From assembly GCA_027014125.1 (NCBI GenBank), contig JALWEI010000039.1:1-64000 (forward strand): a stretch of DNA of 64,000 nt. The letters are read 5' to 3'. The DNA comes from Acidilobaceae archaeon (GTDB lineage: Archaea; Thermoproteota; Thermoprotei_A; Sulfolobales; Acidilobaceae). Position 1 is the first letter of the stretch; each line of letters starts with the position of its first letter. The notes under the pieces are model-generated. The model was not told the origin of the DNA. It saw only the letters and a list, made by a program, of their open reading frames with translations, and ran no database searches. Shown piece after piece: positions 16,713 to 38,347 of this stretch. The translations under genes and the position numbers were made by a program.

Positions 16713-17147
16713 CTATGGGCTAGGGGACCGCGCCTCCGCTACGACCTTTCGCCGTATAGCATCCACCAGATCATCCAGGGTTACCGGCTTCCCGGGGTCC
16801 AGGCCCAGCCGCTTCAGCTCCTCGGGGCGGGCTGGTATTAGGATTACCTCGTCTGGGCTCCACTCCGTGCTCCCTAGGACTTCTAACTCTTCTCTTATGA
16901 GTGGGTCTAGCCTGCTCCAGATTATGTCGTCCTTGGTGTCCCAGTATTGGGCGTGTAGGTGTGTGGCCTTCCCTATTAGTATGACCGCGTAGGCCCTCTT
17001 CTTACCCCCAGTGAGCTCCTCTGCAATGTCTAGGGGGATCTTGGCGTGGGCCCTCTTGTACTTGCGTCCTTTGACTGTGGTGGTTGTTATGGATACTGGG
17101 ACTATGACTGGGTGTAGCCTCCGGGTTAGGAGTCTCAGCACTGTCAT
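16713..17147 (-). CDS. AbrB-like regulator, module copy 1
   Basis: 144 residues; not a family I can name with certainty. The N-terminal half contains AHAKIPLDIAEELTGG, which resembles the swapped-hairpin AbrB/SpoVT DNA-binding fold (a strand, IP, then a helix). The C-terminus, LGLDPGKPVTLDDLVDAIR followed by RKVVAEARSPSP, is shared with two paralogues at 17655-18113 and 21847-22281. Each of the three faces a small winged-helix gene in divergent orientation; the partner of this copy (17304-17549) is broken. I infer a DNA-binding regulator of its own divergent promoter. AT position 17145-17147 is a clear ATG start. Confidence 0.6.
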   Translation of the reverse strand: MTVLRLLTRRLHPVIVPVSITTTTVKGRKYKRAHAKIPLDIAEELTGGKKRAYAVILIGKATHLHAQYWDTKDDIIWSRLDPLIREELEVLGSTEWSPDEVILIPARPEELKRLGLDPGKPVTLDDLVDAIRRKVVAEARSPSP

Positions 17148-17211
17148 TCCCCGTCCTCCTGGGCCCCTCTTTTCTCCCGTATATAGGGTATAGGGGTTTG
17201 CGGGGTTTAAG

Positions 17212-17246
17212 TAGTTTGCTCTTGTTATACTTGTTAGCGCAAACTA
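17212..17246. promoter_or_regulatory. Inverted repeat in module 1 divergent promoter
   Basis: TAGTTTGC at 17212-17219 is repeated inverted as GCAAACTA at 17239-17246 with 19 bases between. It lies between the AbrB-like gene and the winged-helix pseudogene, next to the TATA-like CTATAAATATAGG. It is a candidate operator of this module and differs from the palindromes of the other two copies. Confidence 0.5.
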
Positions 17247-17303
17247 TAAATATAGGATGCGTGGGATAGTAGTTACTGGGATCGGCATGAGCCTAGGCAG
17301 GGT

Positions 17304-17549
17304 ATGGGGGAGCTCGCCGAGGAGGAGAGACACGGCAGGAAGCCGCACCACACGCCAATAGGCGAGATAATGAGGAAGCTGGCACCAAGCCTCAGAGACA
17401 CGGCAACAATCCGGTGAGCCCTCAAAGGGCTCAAGAGGAGGGGGCTCGCTAGGACGGTGAAGTCCGGGGGAGAAAGGAGAGCTGGACCCTAACCCGGGGA
17501 GGGAGCAAACCTAGCAGCAGAGTACTGTCCAAGGCTATGGGAGGACTAA
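17304..17549 (+). pseudogene. Winged-helix gene remnant, module copy 1 (two in-frame stops)
   Basis: From ATG 17304 the frame gives a product resembling the 85- and 86-residue winged-helix proteins at 18236 and 22405: HHTPIGEIMRKLAPSLRD, then ALKGLKRRGLARTVKSGG (compare GIKQLERQGLVYRKGG). TGA at 17415-17417 and TAA at 17490-17492 interrupt it, but the same frame continues to a TAA at 17547, giving about 81 codons, close to the intact length. Its position, divergent from an AbrB-like gene, matches the two intact copies. Simple decay is the best reading; readthrough would need evidence that is not here. Confidence 0.7.
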
Positions 17550-17654
17550 CACCAGGCCCAGCACTGGCATAGGCAAGGGCCGGAGTAGCCCCCATGAGCC
17601 AACCGACACTACACTAGTACCAGATGCCAGCCAGAGGGATGCCTACCCGTCACC

Positions 17655-18113
17655 CTATTGGGTGGGAGCCTCTGCTAGGACCTTGCGCTTTATCGCTTCT
17701 TCTATGTCCTCGAGGGTTATGGGCCTGTCGGGGTCTAGGCCTAGCTGTCTTAGCCTTTCTGGGTCTGCTGGTATGAGGGTTATGGGCTTGTTGGGGTTGT
17801 CTAGGGTTAGGGCTTTGATCTCCTTGGCTATCCTCTCGGGGAGGTCTTCTGTTGGCAGGGTGGCCCAGTCTAGTAGGTGGTGCCATGGCGCCTTGGTTGC
17901 TAGCACTGTTATGGGCACGCCCTCGCTGCCCGGCTCTGGGAGCCTCTCCCCTAGCAGCTCCCTGGCTAGCCTCTTGGGGAGGCTTATGTAGTACTGGGTG
18001 TAGCTCCTCCCCTTCGCCCCGGCCTTCTTCGCCTTTACCGTTAGGGGCATCAGCAGGTACCTGCGGCCTGCGAGTGTGATCCACTTGGCGTGGTACTCCC
18101 ATAGGTCCTCCAT
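17655..18113 (-). CDS. AbrB-like regulator, module copy 2
   Basis: 152 residues, paralogue of 16713-17147 and 21847-22281. YTQYYISLPKRLARELLGE (about residues 39-57) matches the AbrB/SpoVT pattern, and the C-terminal LGLDPDRPITLEDIEEAIK plus RKVLAEA is nearly the same as in copy 3, including at the DNA level over the last roughly 100 bases. The gene is divergent from the winged-helix gene at 18236, with 122 bases between that carry several dyads. Expected role: DNA-binding regulator, probably autoregulating; function beyond this is unknown. The start is ATG at 18111-18113. Confidence 0.6.
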   Translation of the reverse strand: MEDLWEYHAKWITLAGRRYLLMPLTVKAKKAGAKGRSYTQYYISLPKRLARELLGERLPEPGSEGVPITVLATKAPWHHLLDWATLPTEDLPERIAKEIKALTLDNPNKPITLIPADPERLRQLGLDPDRPITLEDIEEAIKRKVLAEAPTQ

Positions 18114-18143
18114 ACTGCCCGTACCCCCTATACCATGTATTGT

Positions 18144-18222
18144 TAGGCTAGCCTATATATGTTTAACCTATAACCAATTGTATAGGCTAAACTTATAAGT
18201 GTGCGGAGAGTATAGCCTAAAC
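18144..18222. promoter_or_regulatory. Cluster of palindromes in module 2 divergent promoter
   Basis: TAGGCTAGCCTA (18144-18155) is a perfect palindrome. GTTTAACCTATA (18161-18172) and TATAGGCTAAAC (18181-18192) form an inverted repeat with one mismatch and an 8-base spacer, and a third half-site TATAGCCTAAAC lies at 18211-18222. All contain the same core, so this looks like a multi-site operator covering both divergent promoters. The likely ligand is one of the two flanking regulators. Confidence 0.6.
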
Positions 18223-18235
18223 TCCTGGGGAGGAC

Positions 18236-18493
18236 GTGACGCCAAGAGTGGAGCCGGAGCACCTCCAAGCAGTCCTATGCAGCCTATACAGGCTATGCGG
18301 CGAGACGACACGCTGCCACGTGCCCGGAGAGGCAATCACGAGAACCCTGCCAAAGCACCAGAGGGGAGCAGCATGGAAGGCCCTAAAGCAGCTCATCAAG
18401 CAGGGCCTGGTATACAGAAAGGGCGGCACAGACAGCTACGGCCTCACCCGGGAGGGCCTGGAGAAGGCGAGGGAGACCTGTATGGAGGAGTAG
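18236..18493 (+). CDS. Small winged-helix protein, module copy 2
   Basis: 85 residues starting at GTG 18236 behind GGGGAGG. Helices are followed by KALKQLIKQGLVYRKGG and SYGLTREGLEKARETC, the recognition helix and wing pattern of small archaeal winged-helix DNA-binding proteins. The 86-residue protein at 22405 shares MTPR at the start and over half of the C-terminal residues. It is divergent from the AbrB-like gene at 17655. I infer a transcription regulator acting on the shared promoter; targets elsewhere are unknown. Confidence 0.6.
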   Translation: MTPRVEPEHLQAVLCSLYRLCGETTRCHVPGEAITRTLPKHQRGAAWKALKQLIKQGLVYRKGGTDSYGLTREGLEKARETCMEE

Positions 18494-18625
18494 CCGGGAC
18501 CTAGCTAGGTCCTAGGCGCAACCGGGGGTGCGCCCGACTGTTCTTATAGTTAATACGGTGGTTGCACATACCGGGGACTGCCTAGTCTCCCCGCCCCGCA
18601 TATATTCTGGTAGAGGGGTGAGGGC

Positions 18626-18985
18626 TTGGAGTTCGAGGAGTGGCTGCGTGGGAGGGCGCCTGAGAGCGTGGAGGGCTATATGCGCTACTACAGTAGGTTT
18701 AGGCGGGAGCTGGAGGGGCTCAGGATATCTGAGCTGCCCTGCAACAGCTGGGTGGAGAAGCTGGCCGGGCTCTGGCTGGACTACCTCCTCTTCCGGGGCC
18801 GGCTAGACGTGGACTCTTACAGCAGGAAGAAGGTGGAGCTCCAGGTGTATAGGAGGACTAGGTGGAGGAGCATAGCCCTCCTAGCCCCGGAGAGCGGGGT
18901 GAGGGCTAAGCACTTGCTAAACCATAGACTGCGTACAGCTATATTAGATACATTTTATCTTTCTAAATTGAAACCACTGCAATGA
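18626..18985 (+). pseudogene. N-terminal fragment of a tyrosine recombinase/integrase
   Basis: 119 residues from TTG 18626. SVEGYMRYYSRFRRELEGL is the SAM-like core-binding start common in archaeal tyrosine recombinases, and SIALLAPESGVRAKHLL looks like the box that holds the first catalytic Arg. The protein then leaves the family: the last 20 codons are AT-rich and end in TGA, and no box with HxxR or the catalytic Tyr follows in the window. So this is a catalytic domain cut off just after the first Arg. Base composition changes sharply at about 18920, suggesting the AT-rich segment was joined here. Confidence 0.5.
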
Positions 18986-19189
18986 CCCGGGAAACCTCCT
19001 GTTACCGTTATATTCTCTTGTATTTTAATTGCTTTGCAGACCAGTAATCACCACTAGATACCATGTATAGATACCATGTAGCCTGTCACATCATACCTGT
19101 ACATATCTCCAGATACTAGTATATAATATATTATGTAGGTAACGATCCTTCAATTAAATTATTATTCAAAAATACTATAGATAAGGGAT

Positions 19190-20151
19190 ATGAGAAGCAC
19201 AACACTAACTAAAGTAGACGAGTTGATACACGGTAACATTATTAAGAAGGATTCTACCCCAGTTATAATTATAGGCAACGTAAACGATGTAAACTCTATT
19301 ATGAAAATGCTAGGCTCGAGAATGTATGAAGTACCAATAGCTGTGAAAATGGAAATAAACGGTGAAACAACTGTAATAAAGTTAGAAACAATAGTTTATG
19401 GCTACATTCCTATTGGTGACGGTGTTGGCAAGATGTTCTCCGTCAATGGACTTAAGACCACGTTAAAGGATAATTTAGTATCAACATATTTAAATATGGA
19501 AAAATATATTGAATCAAACATGCCTGGTCGTGTAGGTATAGCCGAAGCCCAAGCTGACTTTACTTATAATGCATGTCCTTATGGAATACTAAATATATGG
19601 GATATTGTTGAAGATAAAAACGATAATAATCCATCTTATTGGTGGAGATCTTATCATTTTAAATCTCAAATAGTACCTGGAGTACTAAATTGTGCAAGTA
19701 ACTGGAAGAACTCTGAGATTAAGGAGGTCTTTGACGCAGACTACTATAATACTTCAGGTTTCCTATCTGATTACTCGCCAACTACAACATATGGTGTTAG
19801 ATCTGTAACTGTAGGATTATCTGTATCAGTTCAAGGAGATGAGATGGAATTAGCCCTGGAGTCTCAGTATCTGCATCTTGGACTTATAGTATTCCTAATG
19901 TGATAGTTCTAGATCAAAGTAACTTTGCTATTATGCAAGCAAAATGGATACATGATATAGATCAATCAAAGCAAGTAGGATCTAACACGTACTTGACAGA
20001 GCCAGGAACCATATTTAGATTTCCAGAACATGGAACATATTCTTGGTATACTAAAACTCTGGGACAGTGGGCTAGGACGAGCTGTTTCATCTGCGGTTGG
20101 CAATACTCTGGATACTATGGTTATATAGTACAGTGGACTGTAATAACTTAA
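19190..20151 (+). pseudogene. Frameshifted gene of unknown function in the AT-rich island
   Basis: The first part (19190-19903, 237 codons) and second part (19900-20151) are halves of one protein. Reading in the second frame before its first ATG gives PGVSVSASWTYSIPNVIVLD, which continues the beta-rich style of the first part and runs on to IT at 20149. The break is at GAGATGAGAT (19836-19845), a 5-base tandem duplication; removing one copy restores one frame of about 318 residues. The protein has no recognised family; it looks like a beta-rich exported or structural protein with a DQSNFAIMQAKWIHDIDQ segment. No signal peptide is visible at this start, so the N-terminus may also be incomplete. 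Confidence 0.55.
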
Positions 20152-20223
20152 AACTAATCAATCTCATAAAGCTAACTTTTTTCCCTCTGTAAACCTATAT
20201 TATTTCCTAGGATAGGTGGAATT

Positions 20224-21201
20224 ATGTCCATTGATAGACATTACGGTTTGTATGCTTTCATATTTATAGTATTTAGCTTAATCGCACTAGTGTTATTATA
20301 TTATGCTCAGTCTCCTGACGTCTCCTCTACTAATAATCGTTTTAGTGCGTGCATGTATGAGGTTAATGTTAGTGATGATTCTGGAGAATTACTAAGCAAG
20401 GCGGAGTGCGATGCTAACAAGATTATTACAGTGTATAGTGTAGCTAGTTATAATCTAGATAGTATAAATTATACAGTTGATAAGTATAAGGTAGTGCTGG
20501 TTCGTAATGTAAGTGGAATAATATTAGAGAATATCTATAGTCTAATTGGTTTATCGAGCATAGATTTCGGTCGTGAGCCTTCTTCTATAGTATTATATCA
20601 TTGTGGGAGTAGTATTTGCGTATTGTACTTGTCTCCCGATGACGAGTATTATATTGCGAATTATATAGAGTTGGGTTATAGGGTCTCTAGGCAGGTGCAG
20701 CATCCCTCTATTTTGCTGCCTGTTAGAGTCAATGATGTTCCATCCCTGTATAGCGTGTCTATATTAGAGCGGGATGTTGCCAGCAAGTCTAATATATCGG
20801 GGCCAAATATAGTGAGTTACAATAGGACGCTGAACTTGATCCTGACACTATTTATAGGTGGTTGCTTAGAGCGGGATATCGCTGTGAGTGAAACTGTGAA
20901 GGTGATCACAGGAGGTATACTTGCCGACTATAAGCCTTCGACGAGCTACTCCCCCCTACATGCCAGGCTGCCGGATGGCACTGTTTTGGAGTCTAACTTT
21001 ACTGGTGTGTATAAGGATAGGAGCGACTTCTCACAGGATCTTGCTAGGTGGGTTATAGAGGTTTCAAAGTGCAAGGGTGACGGGGTTCAGGTAATCTCCT
21101 CCTATGTAAGTATAGGTAAGACTAGCGGAGCACGGCCTACATGGGTTCTAATTGGCTTGGATACTGGCGGTGATAGGGTGGACCTGATGCTCAAGGACTA
21201 G
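20224..21201 (+). CDS. Membrane-anchored protein of unknown function
   Basis: 325 residues. One N-terminal membrane span (YAFIFIVFSLIALVLLYYA, about residues 10-28) is followed by a roughly 290-residue region with several cysteines (for example CMYEVNVSD, HCGSSICVLYL, GGCLERD) and N-glycosylation-type sites, so it is probably anchored with its bulk outside. I do not recognise the family. The gene is AT-rich at its start and less so near the end. It follows the frameshifted gene in the same orientation and is likely part of the same acquired segment. Confidence 0.55.
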   Translation: MSIDRHYGLYAFIFIVFSLIALVLLYYAQSPDVSSTNNRFSACMYEVNVSDDSGELLSKAECDANKIITVYSVASYNLDSINYTVDKYKVVLVRNVSGIILENIYSLIGLSSIDFGREPSSIVLYHCGSSICVLYLSPDDEYYIANYIELGYRVSRQVQHPSILLPVRVNDVPSLYSVSILERDVASKSNISGPNIVSYNRTLNLILTLFIGGCLERDIAVSETVKVITGGILADYKPSTSYSPLHARLPDGTVLESNFTGVYKDRSDFSQDLARWVIEVSKCKGDGVQVISSYVSIGKTSGARPTWVLIGLDTGGDRVDLMLKD

Positions 21202-21407
21202 GTCCTACACCTGGTTACTCCCTGTTCCGTGCCTGAACCGGGGATAATGGATTATATTAGTGTGCGGCTTAGTATGCGGCTCCCCCTTGTAGCTATGCTG
21301 TAAGGGCGTCCTAGTGTCAATCAGGGGGGAACTACGGGCCTTCATCCCCTCCGGGCAGTGGGGTGGTCATTGACGGTATTAGCATACATACACGGAGGTA
21401 TGAAGTA

Positions 21408-21749
21408 TTAGTTTCGTGGCTGGCCAGGATATATGGGATTAGTGGGGACGTATCCCCCCCCCTTTGTATCTGGCCCCTGGCCATCCATATACATCATCGA
21501 ATCACTGTAGAGCCTCGGGATTGCAGAGCTGGGCCCGTTGTACCCTTGGGGGGTCCTGGGCTGTGCTATTTCCTGCTTAGCTAGATTTCCCAGCTTGGCC
21601 AGGGCTTCTCTGTATGTAATCTCGCCCTTGCCCAGACTGTAGAGTATCCTGACGGCCTGCCTGTCCTTGCCGTTCTTCCTGGATTCCTCGGCTAGAGCCG
21701 TCAGCTCGACTAGGCGGTGCCTCATCACCAGCAACCTGGGGTGGCGCAT
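21408..21749 (-). CDS. Small hypothetical protein
   Basis: 113 residues with a GGAGGT ribosome site three bases before its ATG (21747-21749). The first 60 residues look like real helical protein (LVELTALAEESRKNGKDRQ, then ILYSLGKGEITYREALAKLG), while the C-terminal 50 are Pro/Gly/Tyr-rich and probably disordered. A second ATG eight codons in (MRHRLVEL) is possible. No family recognised. It lies between the AT-rich island and module copy 3, and its GC-rich composition matches the chromosome rather than the island. Confidence 0.45.
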   Translation of the reverse strand: MRHPRLLVMRHRLVELTALAEESRKNGKDRQAVRILYSLGKGEITYREALAKLGNLAKQEIAQPRTPQGYNGPSSAIPRLYSDSMMYMDGQGPDTKGGGYVPTNPIYPGQPRN

Positions 21750-21846
21750 GAGACCTCCACCCTCCTAGGCTTCTTACCGGGCATTAGGTTATGAAGCCAG
21801 CCTCGCCACCCCCCGCCTTTGCACTGGCGGGTTCCTCCGGCATTAT

Positions 21847-22281
21847 CTATGGGCTAGGCGACTGCGCCTCTGCTAGGACCTTGCGCTTTATCGCTTCTTC
21901 TAGATCCTCTAGGGTTACTGGCCTAGAGGGGTCCAGGCCCAACTGTCTTAGTTCTTCTGGGTTGGCTACTAGTATGTGTGGCCTCTTGCCCCTGCATACT
22001 GTCTGGGGGGCTAGGGTTGCACATAGCTCCAGCTTCTCCCCCTCGGTCAGCCTCGGCAACACCTCCCTGAGTACCTCAGGGTTGCTCCAATCGAATAGGT
22101 GGTACCAGCGTGGATGTTTTAGTGCTACTAGGAGTATTGTGTCTCCTCCTGTTAGGTCTAGGCTCTTGGCTAGGCTTGTTGGTAGGTTTATCCTGTAGGT
22201 TACGTACTCCTTCTCCCCCGTCTTGAGCCTCTTCCTTGACACGTTGGCCCTGGCCGGTAGCACATGGAATACTAGGCTCAC
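21847..22281 (-). CDS. AbrB-like regulator, module copy 3
   Basis: 144 residues from GTG 22279-22281. YRINLPTSLAKSLDLTGGD (about residues 29-47) fits the AbrB/SpoVT pattern of strand, LP and helix, the clearest of the three paralogues. The C-terminal LGLDPSRPVTLEDLEEAIK with RKVLAEAQSPSP nearly repeats copy 2, and the stop-proximal DNA resembles copy 1. The divergent partner at 22405 is intact. Role is inferred: DNA-binding regulator of its own divergent promoter. Confidence 0.6.
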   Translation of the reverse strand: MSLVFHVLPARANVSRKRLKTGEKEYVTYRINLPTSLAKSLDLTGGDTILLVALKHPRWYHLFDWSNPEVLREVLPRLTEGEKLELCATLAPQTVCRGKRPHILVANPEELRQLGLDPSRPVTLEDLEEAIKRKVLAEAQSPSP

Positions 22282-22298
22282 TGCATGAACCCCTGATC

Positions 22299-22310
22299 AC
22301 ATGTACATGT
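22299..22310. promoter_or_regulatory. Palindrome in module 3 divergent promoter
   Basis: ACATGTACATGT is a perfect 12-base palindrome 17 bases from the AbrB-like start. A weaker dyad ATCTTC/GAAGAT follows further into the gap, and a TATA-like TTTTTAAG precedes the winged-helix gene. This is a candidate operator and is unrelated in sequence to those of modules 1 and 2. Confidence 0.5.
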
Positions 22311-22404
22311 TTCCGGGGTAATATATCTTCCGCCATCCCAGCTTTTCCGTCAGAAGATTTTTAAGCCTGCGACCCCCGCCAGGAGGCATGGGGAGAAGGG
22401 GGGC

Positions 22405-22665
22405 TTGACTCCCAGGAGGCTGGAGGAGTGGATACTAGACCAAATCCTATGCGCCCTCTACAAGCTAACCGGCGAGAGCACCCATGCACACTACCCACTA
22501 GAGGCGGTGCTAAGGAAGATCCCTCCAGCCATAAGGGGCGACGTAAGGCAGGGCATAAAGCAGCTAGAGAGGCAGGGCCTGGTATACAGGAAGGGCGGAA
22601 CCAAGAGCTACGGACTGACCCGGGAGGGGCTGGAGCGTGCGAGGGAGGCATGCCTGGAGGAGTAG
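22405..22665 (+). CDS. Small winged-helix protein, module copy 3
   Basis: 86 residues from TTG 22405. It shares MTPR, GIKQLERQGLVYRKGG and SYGLTREGLERAREACLEE with the product of 18236-18493, a winged-helix pattern with recognition helix and wing at the C-terminal side. It faces the AbrB-like gene at 21847 across 123 bases, as in the other two modules. I infer a DNA-binding protein. No other domain is present. Confidence 0.6.
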   Translation: MTPRRLEEWILDQILCALYKLTGESTHAHYPLEAVLRKIPPAIRGDVRQGIKQLERQGLVYRKGGTKSYGLTREGLERAREACLEE

Positions 22666-34323: not shown

Positions 34324-37300
34324 CTAGATTCAATCAGTGTACCTGGACGGGCAGGGAAGGCTCCTGACCGTGTCGCTTTCAACTCTATGAACCAGATTCA
34401 TAGATACTTTGACATTAGGCTGGGCTTGGAGGATGACCTTCCAACCCTATGAACTAGATTCGGTCGACCTGACGGTAACCCCTCAGGCGCCGCCTGAGGT
34501 CTTTCAACTCTATGAACTAGATTCCACTCATCCCCATTACACAGCCGTACCTTGCACCCCTCGAAGCCTTTCAACTCTATGAACTAGATTCAGAGGTGGA
34601 GGTCTAGCCGGGGGTGGTGGTAGATGAGCACTTTCAACTCTATGAACTAGATTCTCGATGTCTATCCTAGCTAGCTCTTTCCTGACCCAGCGGCTCAGCT
34701 CTTCTTTCAACTCTATGAACTAGATTCACCGCTACAAGCGCTAGAGACAGTATCCTCACTCCTCACTCACCTCCCCTACTTTCAACTCTATGAACTAGAT
34801 TCCCTGCACTGCTGATCGACGGGTGGAGGGAGGACACCACGCCTTTCAACTCTATGAACTAGATTCGGCCCCAGGGGTGGCGGGCTTGGGGGCGGAGATG
34901 ATCCTTTCAACTCTATGAACTAGATTCCCACGACAGGTGCACGGAGGAGGCGATGGGGCCCTGTTAGCTTTCAACTCTATGAACTAGATTCCCGTGGTAG
35001 CCGCTCACGCCTGCGCCCTTCACGTACGCGTCTTTCAACTCTATGAACTAGATTCGCGGCTCTACTAGGCTGGCTAATGCTAGCCTAGGCTGGGCCTTTC
35101 AACTCTATGAACTAGATTCACTATGAACTCTACAAATACGAGTATTACCAGGTCAAAGTAGCTTTCAACTCTATGAACTAGATTCGCGTTACCTGAGGGA
35201 GCACCATAAGAGGGCTGTAGTGGATCACTTTCAACTCTATGAACTAGATTCGATTCGCACCTCTTCCCCGGCGACTCTACTAGCTTCCTAACAGCATCCT
35301 CCTTTCAACTCTATGAACTAGATTCAGACCGTTACGACAACGTGGGTTACGACCACAACAGTCATCCCTTTCAACTCTATGAACTAGATTCTCAAGAATC
35401 AGAGGAGTATACGAAGTTTATCTAGGGCCTGGCAACTTTCAACTCTATGAACTAGATTCTATCTCTAGTATTCCGGACTCGGCCAGCCTCCTCTCGCTTT
35501 CAACTCTATGAACTAGATTCCTAGACCTCTCTCAATACACGTGGCACACTCCAGACACTTTCAACTCTATGAACTAGATTCAATTATCAGACGTCAGGCT
35601 CCTAACGTTCTTCTCAAGTCCCTTTCAACTCTATGAACTAGATTCGTCTGGAGCTTGTGGTACTCGTACCTGAGCAATGTAAGGTAGCTTTCAACTCTAT
35701 GAACTAGATTCATGACCGGGTCCGGAAATGCCCCCAAGGCCACAGCCCACCTTTCAACTCTATGAACTAGATTCCTCCTCCCTTCTTTATCTTGGGCCTG
35801 ACACGGGCCACGGCCGCTTTCAACTCTATGAACTAGATTCCGTTCATCCTGATGAACACTGTGTTGCCTGGTTGTATTTCGACCTTTCAACTCTATGAAC
35901 TAGATTCTTGATGTGCATGACGTGGATGACGTTGTCGGCGAGCCTCCGTAGCGCGCTCTTTCAACTCTATGAACTAGATTCTTGGAACCTACTCAACCGA
36001 ACTCAACGACGCGGAAGCAATACCTTTCAACTCTATGAACTAGATTCGCTAGCTAGCGACTGGTTGCCGGCGCTATCCGTATCCGCCAAGAAAGACTTTC
36101 AACTCTATGAACTAGATTCTTTTGGAATGTGCGCCACTCGGGGCCGTCGTCTATGTTGTCGAGGTAGCTTTCAACTCTATGAACTAGATTCGCATCGTGG
36201 GGCGCTTTACGCCTCTGCTCATGTTCTTTGACTTTCAACTCTATGAACTAGATTCTTCGTTGTGTATGATGTAGTATAGCATCTCTGTGACCTGCTTTCA
36301 ACTCTATGAACTAGATTCCTAAGCCTGCTACAGGAGAGAATAGTCTACGACCCGATGACCTTTCAACTCTATGAACTAGATTCTCCTCCCTCAGTAGCGT
36401 AGGCCTCTGTCTCCTTCTGGAATACGTCTTTCAACTCTATGAACTAGATTCCTAGATTCGGAACTCTTCGGCTCGATAGACGTGGCCGAGCTCAGCAAAA
36501 CCTTTCAACTCTATGAACTAGATTCTTAAGAGTAGAAGGGTGTAGTACAACATGAAACTAATGCCTTTCAACTCTATGACTATGAACTAGATTCCTTCCA
36601 TCACAAGACCGGGAGCCTACGCTACAGCTTCACTTTCAACTCTATGAACTAGATTCGCGTTATTACCTTGTGCTAGACGTAAACATAAAGCTGAACACCA
36701 CCTTTCAACTCTATGAACTAGATTCAGCGCTCGGGGACGACGATCCGCTGAGGCTGATACTGACCTTTCAACTCTATGAACTAGATTCAGGTACCCGTGG
36801 CGACCCCGGAACGCCTAGCCAACCAGCCTTTCAACTCTATGAACTAGATTCGATATGTCAAGCAGGCGGCGAAGATAAGAGATAGAGCTGAACCTTTCAA
36901 CTCTATGAACTAGATTCAGGGATAGCAACGTCGGCCAATACGGGCGCTAGAGCTTCGACTTTCAACTCTATGAACTAGATTCGTGAGTTGGGGTGGGAGA
37001 GAAAGTGGAGGGTAGCCTTGGGCCTTTCAACTCTATGAACTAGATTCTCGGCGCAGTCTTGGCTTGGCTCTAGAATTTTGCCGTAACTTTCAACTCTATG
37101 AACTAGATTCCCACCGAATCCTATCCATCTTCACCACCCTCTCTTATTCCCTCACACCTTTCAACTCTATGAACTAGATTCGGTGTGTAGTGTGTCGTGT
37201 GGAATAAAGGAAGAGGAGCTTTCAACTCTATGAACTAGATTCCCTAGCCCTACAGGAGGCGATGTTCCACGCCAGCCACTTTCAACTCTATGAACTAGAT

Positions 37301-38347
37301 TCTATACCAATCCTTATAACCCCGGAGGGATCCTTAGCTTTCAACTCTATGAACTAGATTCACCATGTCCGCTAGGTGCTGGTGCTCCTCCACGTACCTT
37401 AGCTTTCAACTCTATGAACTAGATTCCTAGGCATAGACACAAAAAAGATCCTGCCAGCCTTATTGCTATACACTTTCAACTCTATGAACTAGATTCATAG
37501 CAGAGGCACAATTAGCGTATGACAACGGAAGGCTAGAGTGCGTAGCTTTCAACTCTATGAACTAGATTCATCACGTATTCTCCCCTTACCCCTATCTACC
37601 CTGACTACTCTATCTTTCAACTCTATGAACTAGATTCGGGTTCATGAACTTCGACGAAATTAACCGTAGGCATCCTGTACTTTCAACTCTATGAACTAGA
37701 TTCGCTATCTGGTCGAGGAGCCGGGTGGCGGGTCGCACTTCACTTTCAACTCTATGAACTAGATTCGATGTGGAGCGCCTTGAGCGAGTGATACGCATCG
37801 CAGTCCTTTCAACTCTATGAACTAGATTCCAGGAAAAAACCTATCCCCGATATTTTATCACCGTAAAGAAAAAGCTTTCAACTCTATGAACTAGATTCGT
37901 TGATCTTGTGCAGGTCGATAAAGTCCTCAAGTGGGGCGTCTTTCAACTCTATGAACTAGATTCACATAAGCGAGAATCCCTGCGCCGCCGCCGAGGAACC
38001 CAACTTTCAACTCTATGAACTAGATTCTTACCCTGAAGTTCTCGGCGAATAGCCCAGCCCCACCCAGCCGCCTTTCAACTCTATGAACTAGATTCGGACC
38101 CTTCTGGGCCTGGGGTTTGCAGCCTTGCCCCTAGCCTTTCAACTCTATGAACTAGATTCCGGTGCACGACCACACTGTCGCCCAGTTGGTCGGCCTCGGC
38201 TGCTTTCAACTCTATGAACTAGATTCACCACGTCGTCCCTACGCCTGGCCCTAAGCCCCAGCTTTCAACTCTATGAACTAGATTCCCACACCCGCGTATA
38301 CTCGGGGCTGGCGGCATCCACGCCTTTCAACTCTATGAACTAGATTC
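34317..38347 (-). CRISPR. CRISPR array, 61 repeats plus one truncated repeat, 61 spacers
   Basis: A 24-base repeat (for example 34501-34524) recurs at 59-75 base intervals, so spacers are 35-51 bases. On the minus strand the repeat begins GAATCTAG and ends TTGAAAG, the common 3' tag of crenarchaeal type I repeats, so transcription is right to left with the leader at 38348-38755. The far (left) end is degenerate: 34317-34331 keeps only the last 15 bases, 34376-34399 has one change and 34438-34461 has two. The repeat at 36565-36594 has a 6-base internal duplication (CTATGA). All others appear identical by eye. Cas6 encoded at 49107 would process the transcript. Confidence 0.99.

Follow-up and report, generated by a model that had tools for sequence, protein, structure and literature searches.

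Why should a single archaeal genome carry, within 6 kb, three copies of the same small divergent gene pair? The question is raised by the first 64,000 nucleotides (forward strand) of contig JALWEI010000039.1 from an Acidilobaceae archaeon (GCA_027014125.1), which are the whole stretch analysed here and are referred to as the window. The host is described as a hyperthermophilic archaeon, and its genome (labelled G000) has a size of 1.82 Mb. In each copy an AbrB-like gene (A) faces a small winged-helix gene (B) or its remnant, and the three window pairs are numbered 1 to 3 from the left. A preliminary description had proposed a family of self-regulating cassettes that spreads with mobile DNA. 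The conserved facing pair and its tie to mobile DNA are borne out by our results, and the pair does look self-regulating, because repeated sites are found in the shared promoter region and almost nowhere else in the genome. The notion of a free-standing, self-spreading cassette is unsupported, because intact pairs lie inside integrated elements (on contigs C10 and C33 of the same genome and in the related genome G055) or among genes like those of the conjugative plasmid pNOB8. We propose, with moderate confidence, that the pair serves a family of archaeal integrative conjugative elements as their regulatory switch, and that three such switches survive in the window as decayed remnants.

The pair in integrated elements and in the window

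The threefold repeat noticed in the preliminary description was an understatement, as the host genome contains two further pairs, on contigs C33 and C10, and tandem pairs occur in several related genomes. Both further pairs lie inside an integrated conjugative element with the gene order tRNA 3' half, integrase, B facing A, a gene for a 193-aa protein, VirB6-like, surface protein, VirB4-like and small membrane proteins including a VirB2-like one; C33 additionally encodes a VirD4/TraG-like protein. A third element, on contig C50 of G055 (L088), has the same order (integrase, B and A divergent, 193-aa gene), and the VirB6 gene is convergent in all three. Pfam supports the integrase (PF16795), VirB4 and VirD4 types, with matches to AAA_10, TraG-D_C and T4SS-DNA_transf in C33. 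The tRNA 3' half of C33, approximately 160 bp beyond the integrase stop, is an exact 49-bp match to tRNA-Glu(CTC), and tRNA 3' halves also adjoin the integrase in C10 and G055 (approximately 160-180 bp beyond the stop). The C10 and C33 elements run off the contig ends, and their integrase-distal attachment end is outside the recovered sequence. Of the hallmarks of an integrative conjugative element, an integrase with a tRNA end is present in C10, C33 and G055, and VirB4/VirD4-type genes are present by Pfam match in C33. Neither hallmark applies to the window remnants, where no VirB4/VirD4-type conjugation gene is left.

In the window, three A genes on the minus strand (A1, 16713-17147, 144 aa; A2, 17655-18113, 152 aa; A3, 21847-22281, 144 aa) face B genes on the plus strand (B1, 17304-17528; B2, 18236-18493, 85 aa; B3, 22405-22665, 86 aa) across gaps of 156, 122 and 123 bp, respectively. 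The preliminary description had placed these genes and their gaps of 122-157 bases correctly, and the C-terminus that it had recognised as common to the A proteins (LGLDPxxPxTLxD) belongs to proteins that align over their full length and also have a Tyr/Pro/Trp-His pattern in common in their N-terminal part. A2 is 78% identical to the A protein of one G055 pair and A3 is 74% identical to that of C10, whilst the intact B proteins of the window are 60% identical to each other. B1 is a pseudogene with in-frame stops, matched by relatives of B in tblastn at 17349-17528 (best E 2e-6), so that A1 has a dead partner. Pair 1 is evidently old, because its left flank and an A1 orthologue are also present in the sister genome G050 (L120), which matches contig WAKG01000030.1 of a metagenome-assembled genome labelled Desulfurococcales. 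A profile scan of genome contigs with a five-copy alignment gave a Desulfurococcales metagenome-assembled genome as the single named relative. The recombinase fragment previously reported beside the pairs is the N-terminal part of a tyrosine-recombinase-type integrase gene (18626-18930, plus strand), cut off at the start of an AT-rich island, and intact homologues of it flank both non-window pairs of the same genome.

The solitary pairs of the window are best read as apparent decayed remnants of the control region of integrated conjugative elements and not as free-standing cassettes, because intact pairs occupy a fixed place in elements integrating at tRNA genes or lie among pNOB8-like genes. 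The genome G058 keeps such remnants in tandem, as two successive units of integrase fragment, B, A and 193-aa gene fragment, which is the trace expected where elements integrate repeatedly and then decay. The same history most simply accounts for the window. Remnants in other genomes retain at least two element parts.

Across 229 related genomes of the class, A was found in 31 and B in 26. The preliminary description had made its reading depend on homologues being neighbours elsewhere, and adjacent pairs indeed recur in the gene maps, all but one of them divergent and mostly 50-190 bp apart; the non-divergent exception (L094) and an overlapping pair (L084) both result from over-long automatic reading frames. 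The similarity matrices of A and B are correlated (Mantel r 0.51, and 0.58 within the family, with 0 of 5000 permutations as high in each case). A is intact with B broken or absent in approximately six loci and the reverse holds in approximately two (small numbers, counted by eye); in G173 (L100), for instance, an intact B has no credible A nearby.

The structural model of B (H-E-H-H-E-E-H; mean pLDDT 88 for B3) identifies it, on prediction, as a winged-helix protein, its best Foldseek matches being HxlR, TubR, MarR and F-93 of the virus SSV1, with probabilities near 1 though E values were above 0.02. A is likely, but not securely, AbrB-like. The A proteins of the window have no match to PF04014 (AbrB/MazE), and TIGR01439 reaches E 0.064 for A3. 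Among their relatives, 15 of 33 reach PF04014 (best E 1.6e-8), mostly below the cut-off and, for those rescanned, always below it. As to the DNA-binding fold that the preliminary description expected of A, the monomer model (pLDDT 90) does begin with a beta-beta-alpha arrangement, whilst a search of this model against the PDB gave no match, a result that is uninformative.

Candidate operators in the shared promoter region

Most intergenic regions between A and B contain repeated words, many of them palindromes or near-palindromes, which vary from pair to pair. In C10, TTCTGTAAGAA is present at three places, the third copy being TACTGTAAGAA, and TWCTGTAAGAA has exactly three occurrences in the 1.82-Mb genome, all of them in the intergenic region of the C10 pair. 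The G181 genome has two occurrences of TTCAGACTGAA, 31 bp apart and both within the region of the pair. The word GTTTAGSCTATAC is found exactly three times in G000, twice in the pair 2 region, where an inverted variant is also present, and once inside a radical-SAM-like gene, where the one extra genomic copy of GTTTAGCCTATAC lies. A genome-wide regulon was considered and rejected in view of the near confinement of the operator words to the region of their own pair.

The layout of these candidate operators is conserved though the words differ. O1 is followed after 27-31 bp by O2 and after a further 16-20 bp by O3; the TATA-like boxes of B and A are 37-39 bp apart, with O2 and O3 between them. 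This arrangement is seen in C10, in G055 and G058, and in pairs 2 and 3 of the window; C33 has kept O2 and O3 with about the same TATA spacing, and G181b has two sites only. In pair 2 the candidate sites, all on the minus strand, are O1 (GTTTAGGCTATAC, 18210-18222), O2 (GTTTAGCCTATAC, 18180-18192) and an inverted copy as O3 (TATAGGTTAAAC, 18161-18172); TATA-like elements, placed by inspection, are found at 18192-18199 for B2 (CTTATAAG, plus strand) and at 18153-18160 for A2 (ATATATAG, minus strand). The candidate sites of pair 3 lie on the minus strand at 22374-22384 (O1, TCCTGGCGGGG, degenerate), 22345-22355 (O2, TTCTGACGGAA) and 22328-22338 (O3, GGATGGCGGAA). The repeat score was equalled by 0-2 of 100 shuffles in C10, G051, G055a, G055b, G058a, G058c, G159, G181b, G174, G173 and window pair 2 (2 of 100 for the latter). 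Divergent promoters sharing repeated candidate operators, in the manner of lambda, are found in the better-preserved pairs and are not significant in others. The intergenic repeats probably form an autoregulatory switch, comparable to the lambda operators, that belongs to an archaeal integrative element. A is more likely than B to set operator specificity, because in G058 the operator follows A: there, A has its closest relative in C10 and the operator is of the C10 type as well, while B is closest to another type (a single case).

The proposed switch and its alternatives

We propose the following mechanism. In an intact element, B points towards the integrase gene and A towards the 193-aa gene, from putative promoters lying back to back, with two to three pair-specific palindromic candidate operators beside and between the two TATA boxes. 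A protein bound there would block the access of initiator factors to one or both promoters, and, because the candidate sites abut both TATA boxes, the arrangement suggests that the bound protein represses both itself and its partner. The pair would thereby control itself and, through the direction of B, the integrase, and the outcome would be an element that is either kept quiescent in its integrated state or allowed to excise. We infer that A is the main operator-binding repressor, with B acting as its antagonist or co-regulator and presumably sharing one transcript with the integrase. A is favoured as the holder of the quiet state, given that the operator follows A and that A is more often the member of the pair left on its own.

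Several observations weigh against this proposal. In roughly half of the intergenic regions the repeats do not reach significance, and by the general test pair 3 is among these; the operators of pair 3 are supported solely by a test with fixed spacing, in which the three-site arrangement appeared in 11 of 1000 shuffles, and they fit as a degenerate version. The three-site layout is not shown by the pairs of the Sulfolobales. No sign was seen of the pair acting directly on the transfer genes, TWCTGTAAGAA being absent from the rest of the sequenced C10 element. Co-transcription of B and the integrase is uncertain, because a separate upstream region of 132-164 bp lies between B and the integrase, and in G182 a relative of the integrase has no adjoining pair at all. 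Furthermore, the AbrB assignment of A comes from weak profile matches, and its monomer model has no counterpart among PDB folds.

The proposal can be extended to immunity. Within one genome the operators of different pairs all looked different and matching types were found in different genomes, as immunity groups would predict; same-type pairs are few, and the contrast between operators within and between genomes is not significant. Crenarchaeal conjugative elements could have a lambda-like immunity with type-specific repressor-operator recognition, in which the pairs left behind by dead elements would be retained by the host as a defence against same-type relatives. We put this forward tentatively, and regard as speculative both the equation of operator types with immunity groups (heteroimmunity) and the retention of remnants to block related incoming elements. 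The switch, if real, would account for the quiescence of archaeal conjugative elements within the chromosome, and the regulator pair would offer a simple way to find the remnants of such elements. The pair is also a concrete candidate: it is conserved, the sequences of its putative operators and the distances between them are defined, it occurs naturally in several specificity types and once with A and B mismatched (G058), and its small soluble proteins are amenable to in vitro work.

The alternative that survives best is that the window remnants are neutral debris without present function, whatever the role of the pair in live elements. B1 and the integrase fragment are broken and AT-rich DNA interrupts the remnant, as expected of debris; against it, A1, A2, A3, B2 and B3 are intact, and the orphan A1 has a Ka/Ks of 0.26 relative to its G050 copy, though the adjoining host genes are more strongly constrained. 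We consider debris unlikely, albeit with an appreciable chance of being right.

The pair could also be a stand-alone regulator cassette, mobile in its own right, that elements have acquired and that is not part of them by origin. This arises mainly from the Sulfolobales, in which A is without its C-terminal part and the pair, set in differing surroundings, mostly keeps 85-92% identity between genera; in many cross-genus blastn comparisons the DNA similarity is confined to approximately 607 bp, corresponding to B and A only. Median Ka/Ks values there are 0.06 for A and 0.12 for B; the value for A, like the 0.26 of the orphan A1, points to purifying selection and speaks for the proposed switch. 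The tandem pairs of several genomes would likewise suit a cassette. Set against this, homologues of pNOB8 genes surround most Sulfolobales copies, and pNOB8 itself (NC_006493.1) matches both flanks of the pair at L101, with only the interior of the pair deleted. The idea of a 0.6-kb self-mobile cassette in the Sulfolobales, raised by the limits of the blastn matches, is weakened by these flanks and neighbouring plasmid genes. The fixed place of the pair, which three elements have between their integrase gene on one side and the 193-aa/VirB6 genes on the other, and the lack of terminal repeats or a transposase in the aligned copies, also speak against a cassette, which we consider improbable. 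In pNOB8 (L121/L157 540-826) the deletion comprises B and the first half of A, and what is left is annotated as a 55-aa hypothetical protein.

There is a slimmer chance that B is a centromere-binding partition protein of the AspA/TubR kind, with the repeats as centromere and A as autoregulator. TubR is among the best fold matches of B, a B profile weakly matches AspA chains (E 0.3) and two AspA-like genes of pNOB8, and the pNOB8 AspA gene likewise faces another regulator, across 105 bp. Nevertheless, no ParA/ParB gene adjoins B in C10, C33 or G055 C50, the sites number only two to three and straddle two promoters, the operator in G058 follows A and not B, and an integrated element has no need of partition.

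Least probable is an addiction module of the toxin-antitoxin kind with an AbrB/MazE-type antitoxin: A weakly matches the MazE/AbrB model and the pairs outlast the decay of the elements, but B is a plain 85-aa winged helix without a toxin domain, it occurs intact without A in G173, the pairs are divergent where typical modules are co-directional operons, and PADLOC gave the window proteins no defence or toxin assignment beyond a weak helix-turn-helix match. No other profile match among the window proteins supported a toxin-antitoxin or known defence system, and a viral origin was rejected, there being no relatives in viral contig scans or phage records.

Related systems and adjoining sequence

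In phage lambda, an integrating element with different specificity types, the genes for the DNA-binding proteins CI and Cro diverge from a shared region in which about three repeated operators accompany the two promoters. The present pair has the divergent DNA-binding genes, approximately three repeated operators (candidates here), the integrating element and the specificity types in common with lambda, but the protein families are unrelated, the promoters are of the archaeal TATA/BRE type, and mutual repression, bistability and immunity are hypothetical for the archaeal pair. The closest known system is C68/ORF60 of the Sulfolobus plasmid-virus pSSVx. As summarised in a review citing Contursi 2011 (PMC5569661), C68 is an AbrB-like protein divergent from a second small regulator, as in the present pair, and it occupies two sites between the two genes, one of them on the BRE of its own promoter. 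pSSVx differs in that the partner is CopG-like and not winged-helix, C68 is without a C-terminal domain, and the host element is a virus-plasmid hybrid and not a conjugative element; the review describes neither a three-site layout nor pair-specific operators. Archaeal repressors act mainly by occluding the TATA/BRE or start site (PMC5569661). The lysogeny regulator F55 of SSV1 resembles CI as a crenarchaeal repressor acting at BRE and start sites via tandem repeats, but it is a ribbon-helix-helix protein that controls several virus promoters and has no divergent winged-helix partner (PMC5569661).

Immunity is documented in the halovirus phiH (PMC6210493), and phiH1, with its RepR/Imm repressor and demonstrated immunity, is likewise an archaeal integrating or plasmid-like element; it is, however, a euryarchaeal virus with other genes and not an AbrB/winged-helix pair (PMC6210493). 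A 2021 review of archaeal integrases notes that reports of a lambda-type immunity system in archaeal mobile elements were lacking (PMC8371274). The open-licence literature searched, which had preprints outside its scope and is weak evidence for an absence, describes neither this pair nor any crenarchaeal conjugative element with lambda-type operators. The pNOB8-like conjugative plasmids of Sulfolobus encode VirB4, VirB6, VirB2 and VirD4-like proteins homologous to those of the present elements, in addition to the deleted pair of pNOB8 (PMC9899855; NC_006493.1). They differ in that the integrase profile of the present elements has no match in pNOB8 and that the published regulator is PlrA (PMC9899855); the pair is not described in the literature searched on these plasmids (PMC9899855). 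The Ced/Ted systems use the same kind of VirB4/VirB6/VirB2 machinery, but are domesticated for DNA import, whereas the present genes are accompanied by an integrase next to a tRNA end (PMC9905601).

Some further features of the elements were observed. The 193-aa gene beside A (L014:9736-10317, L015:12502-13083 and L089:5591-6055) has a weak PqqD-like match (E 7e-4, L089), and a Sulfolobales candidate homologue of 147 aa (L108) received no support from the profile. The 1087-aa VirD4-like protein (L015:1507-4770) matches the PADLOC model mad8 (E 3e-22), probably reflecting a shared ATPase domain. A second integrase gene near the C10 element (L014:4956-6017; PF16795, E 5e-26) overlaps an opposite-strand tRNA-Leu gene and is perhaps part of a different integrated element.

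Between B2 and the integrase gene, a non-coding stretch (18500-18625, plus strand) is conserved, with 92% identity to C33 (L015:13976-14101) and 82% over 74 bp to C10 (30823-30896), whereas the integrase proteins of the window and C33 are just approximately 45-50% identical. This stretch could be a regulatory, transfer-origin or attachment sequence; a structural RNA in the conserved 131-bp stretch was rejected, as Rfam gave no match and the fold z-score was -0.96. The foreign DNA noted earlier is real, with a GC content of 34-39% at 19-21 kb compared to approximately 60% around it. This AT-rich island (18930-21200) interrupts the integrase remnant and contains three reading frames (237, 83 and 325 aa), of which those of 237 and 325 aa have no credible Pfam, NCBIfam or PHROGs match. 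By pair 3, a 113-aa frame (21408-21749) has a relative near another A/B pair, in G173 (L099:11100-11270; 46% over 57 aa, E 1e-4). Host genes, named by sequence inspection, are NurA/HerA-like and asparaginase-like to the left of the region and acylaminoacyl-peptidase-like to the right, and another stretch of low GC content (approximately 46%) is located at 35000-38000 of the window.

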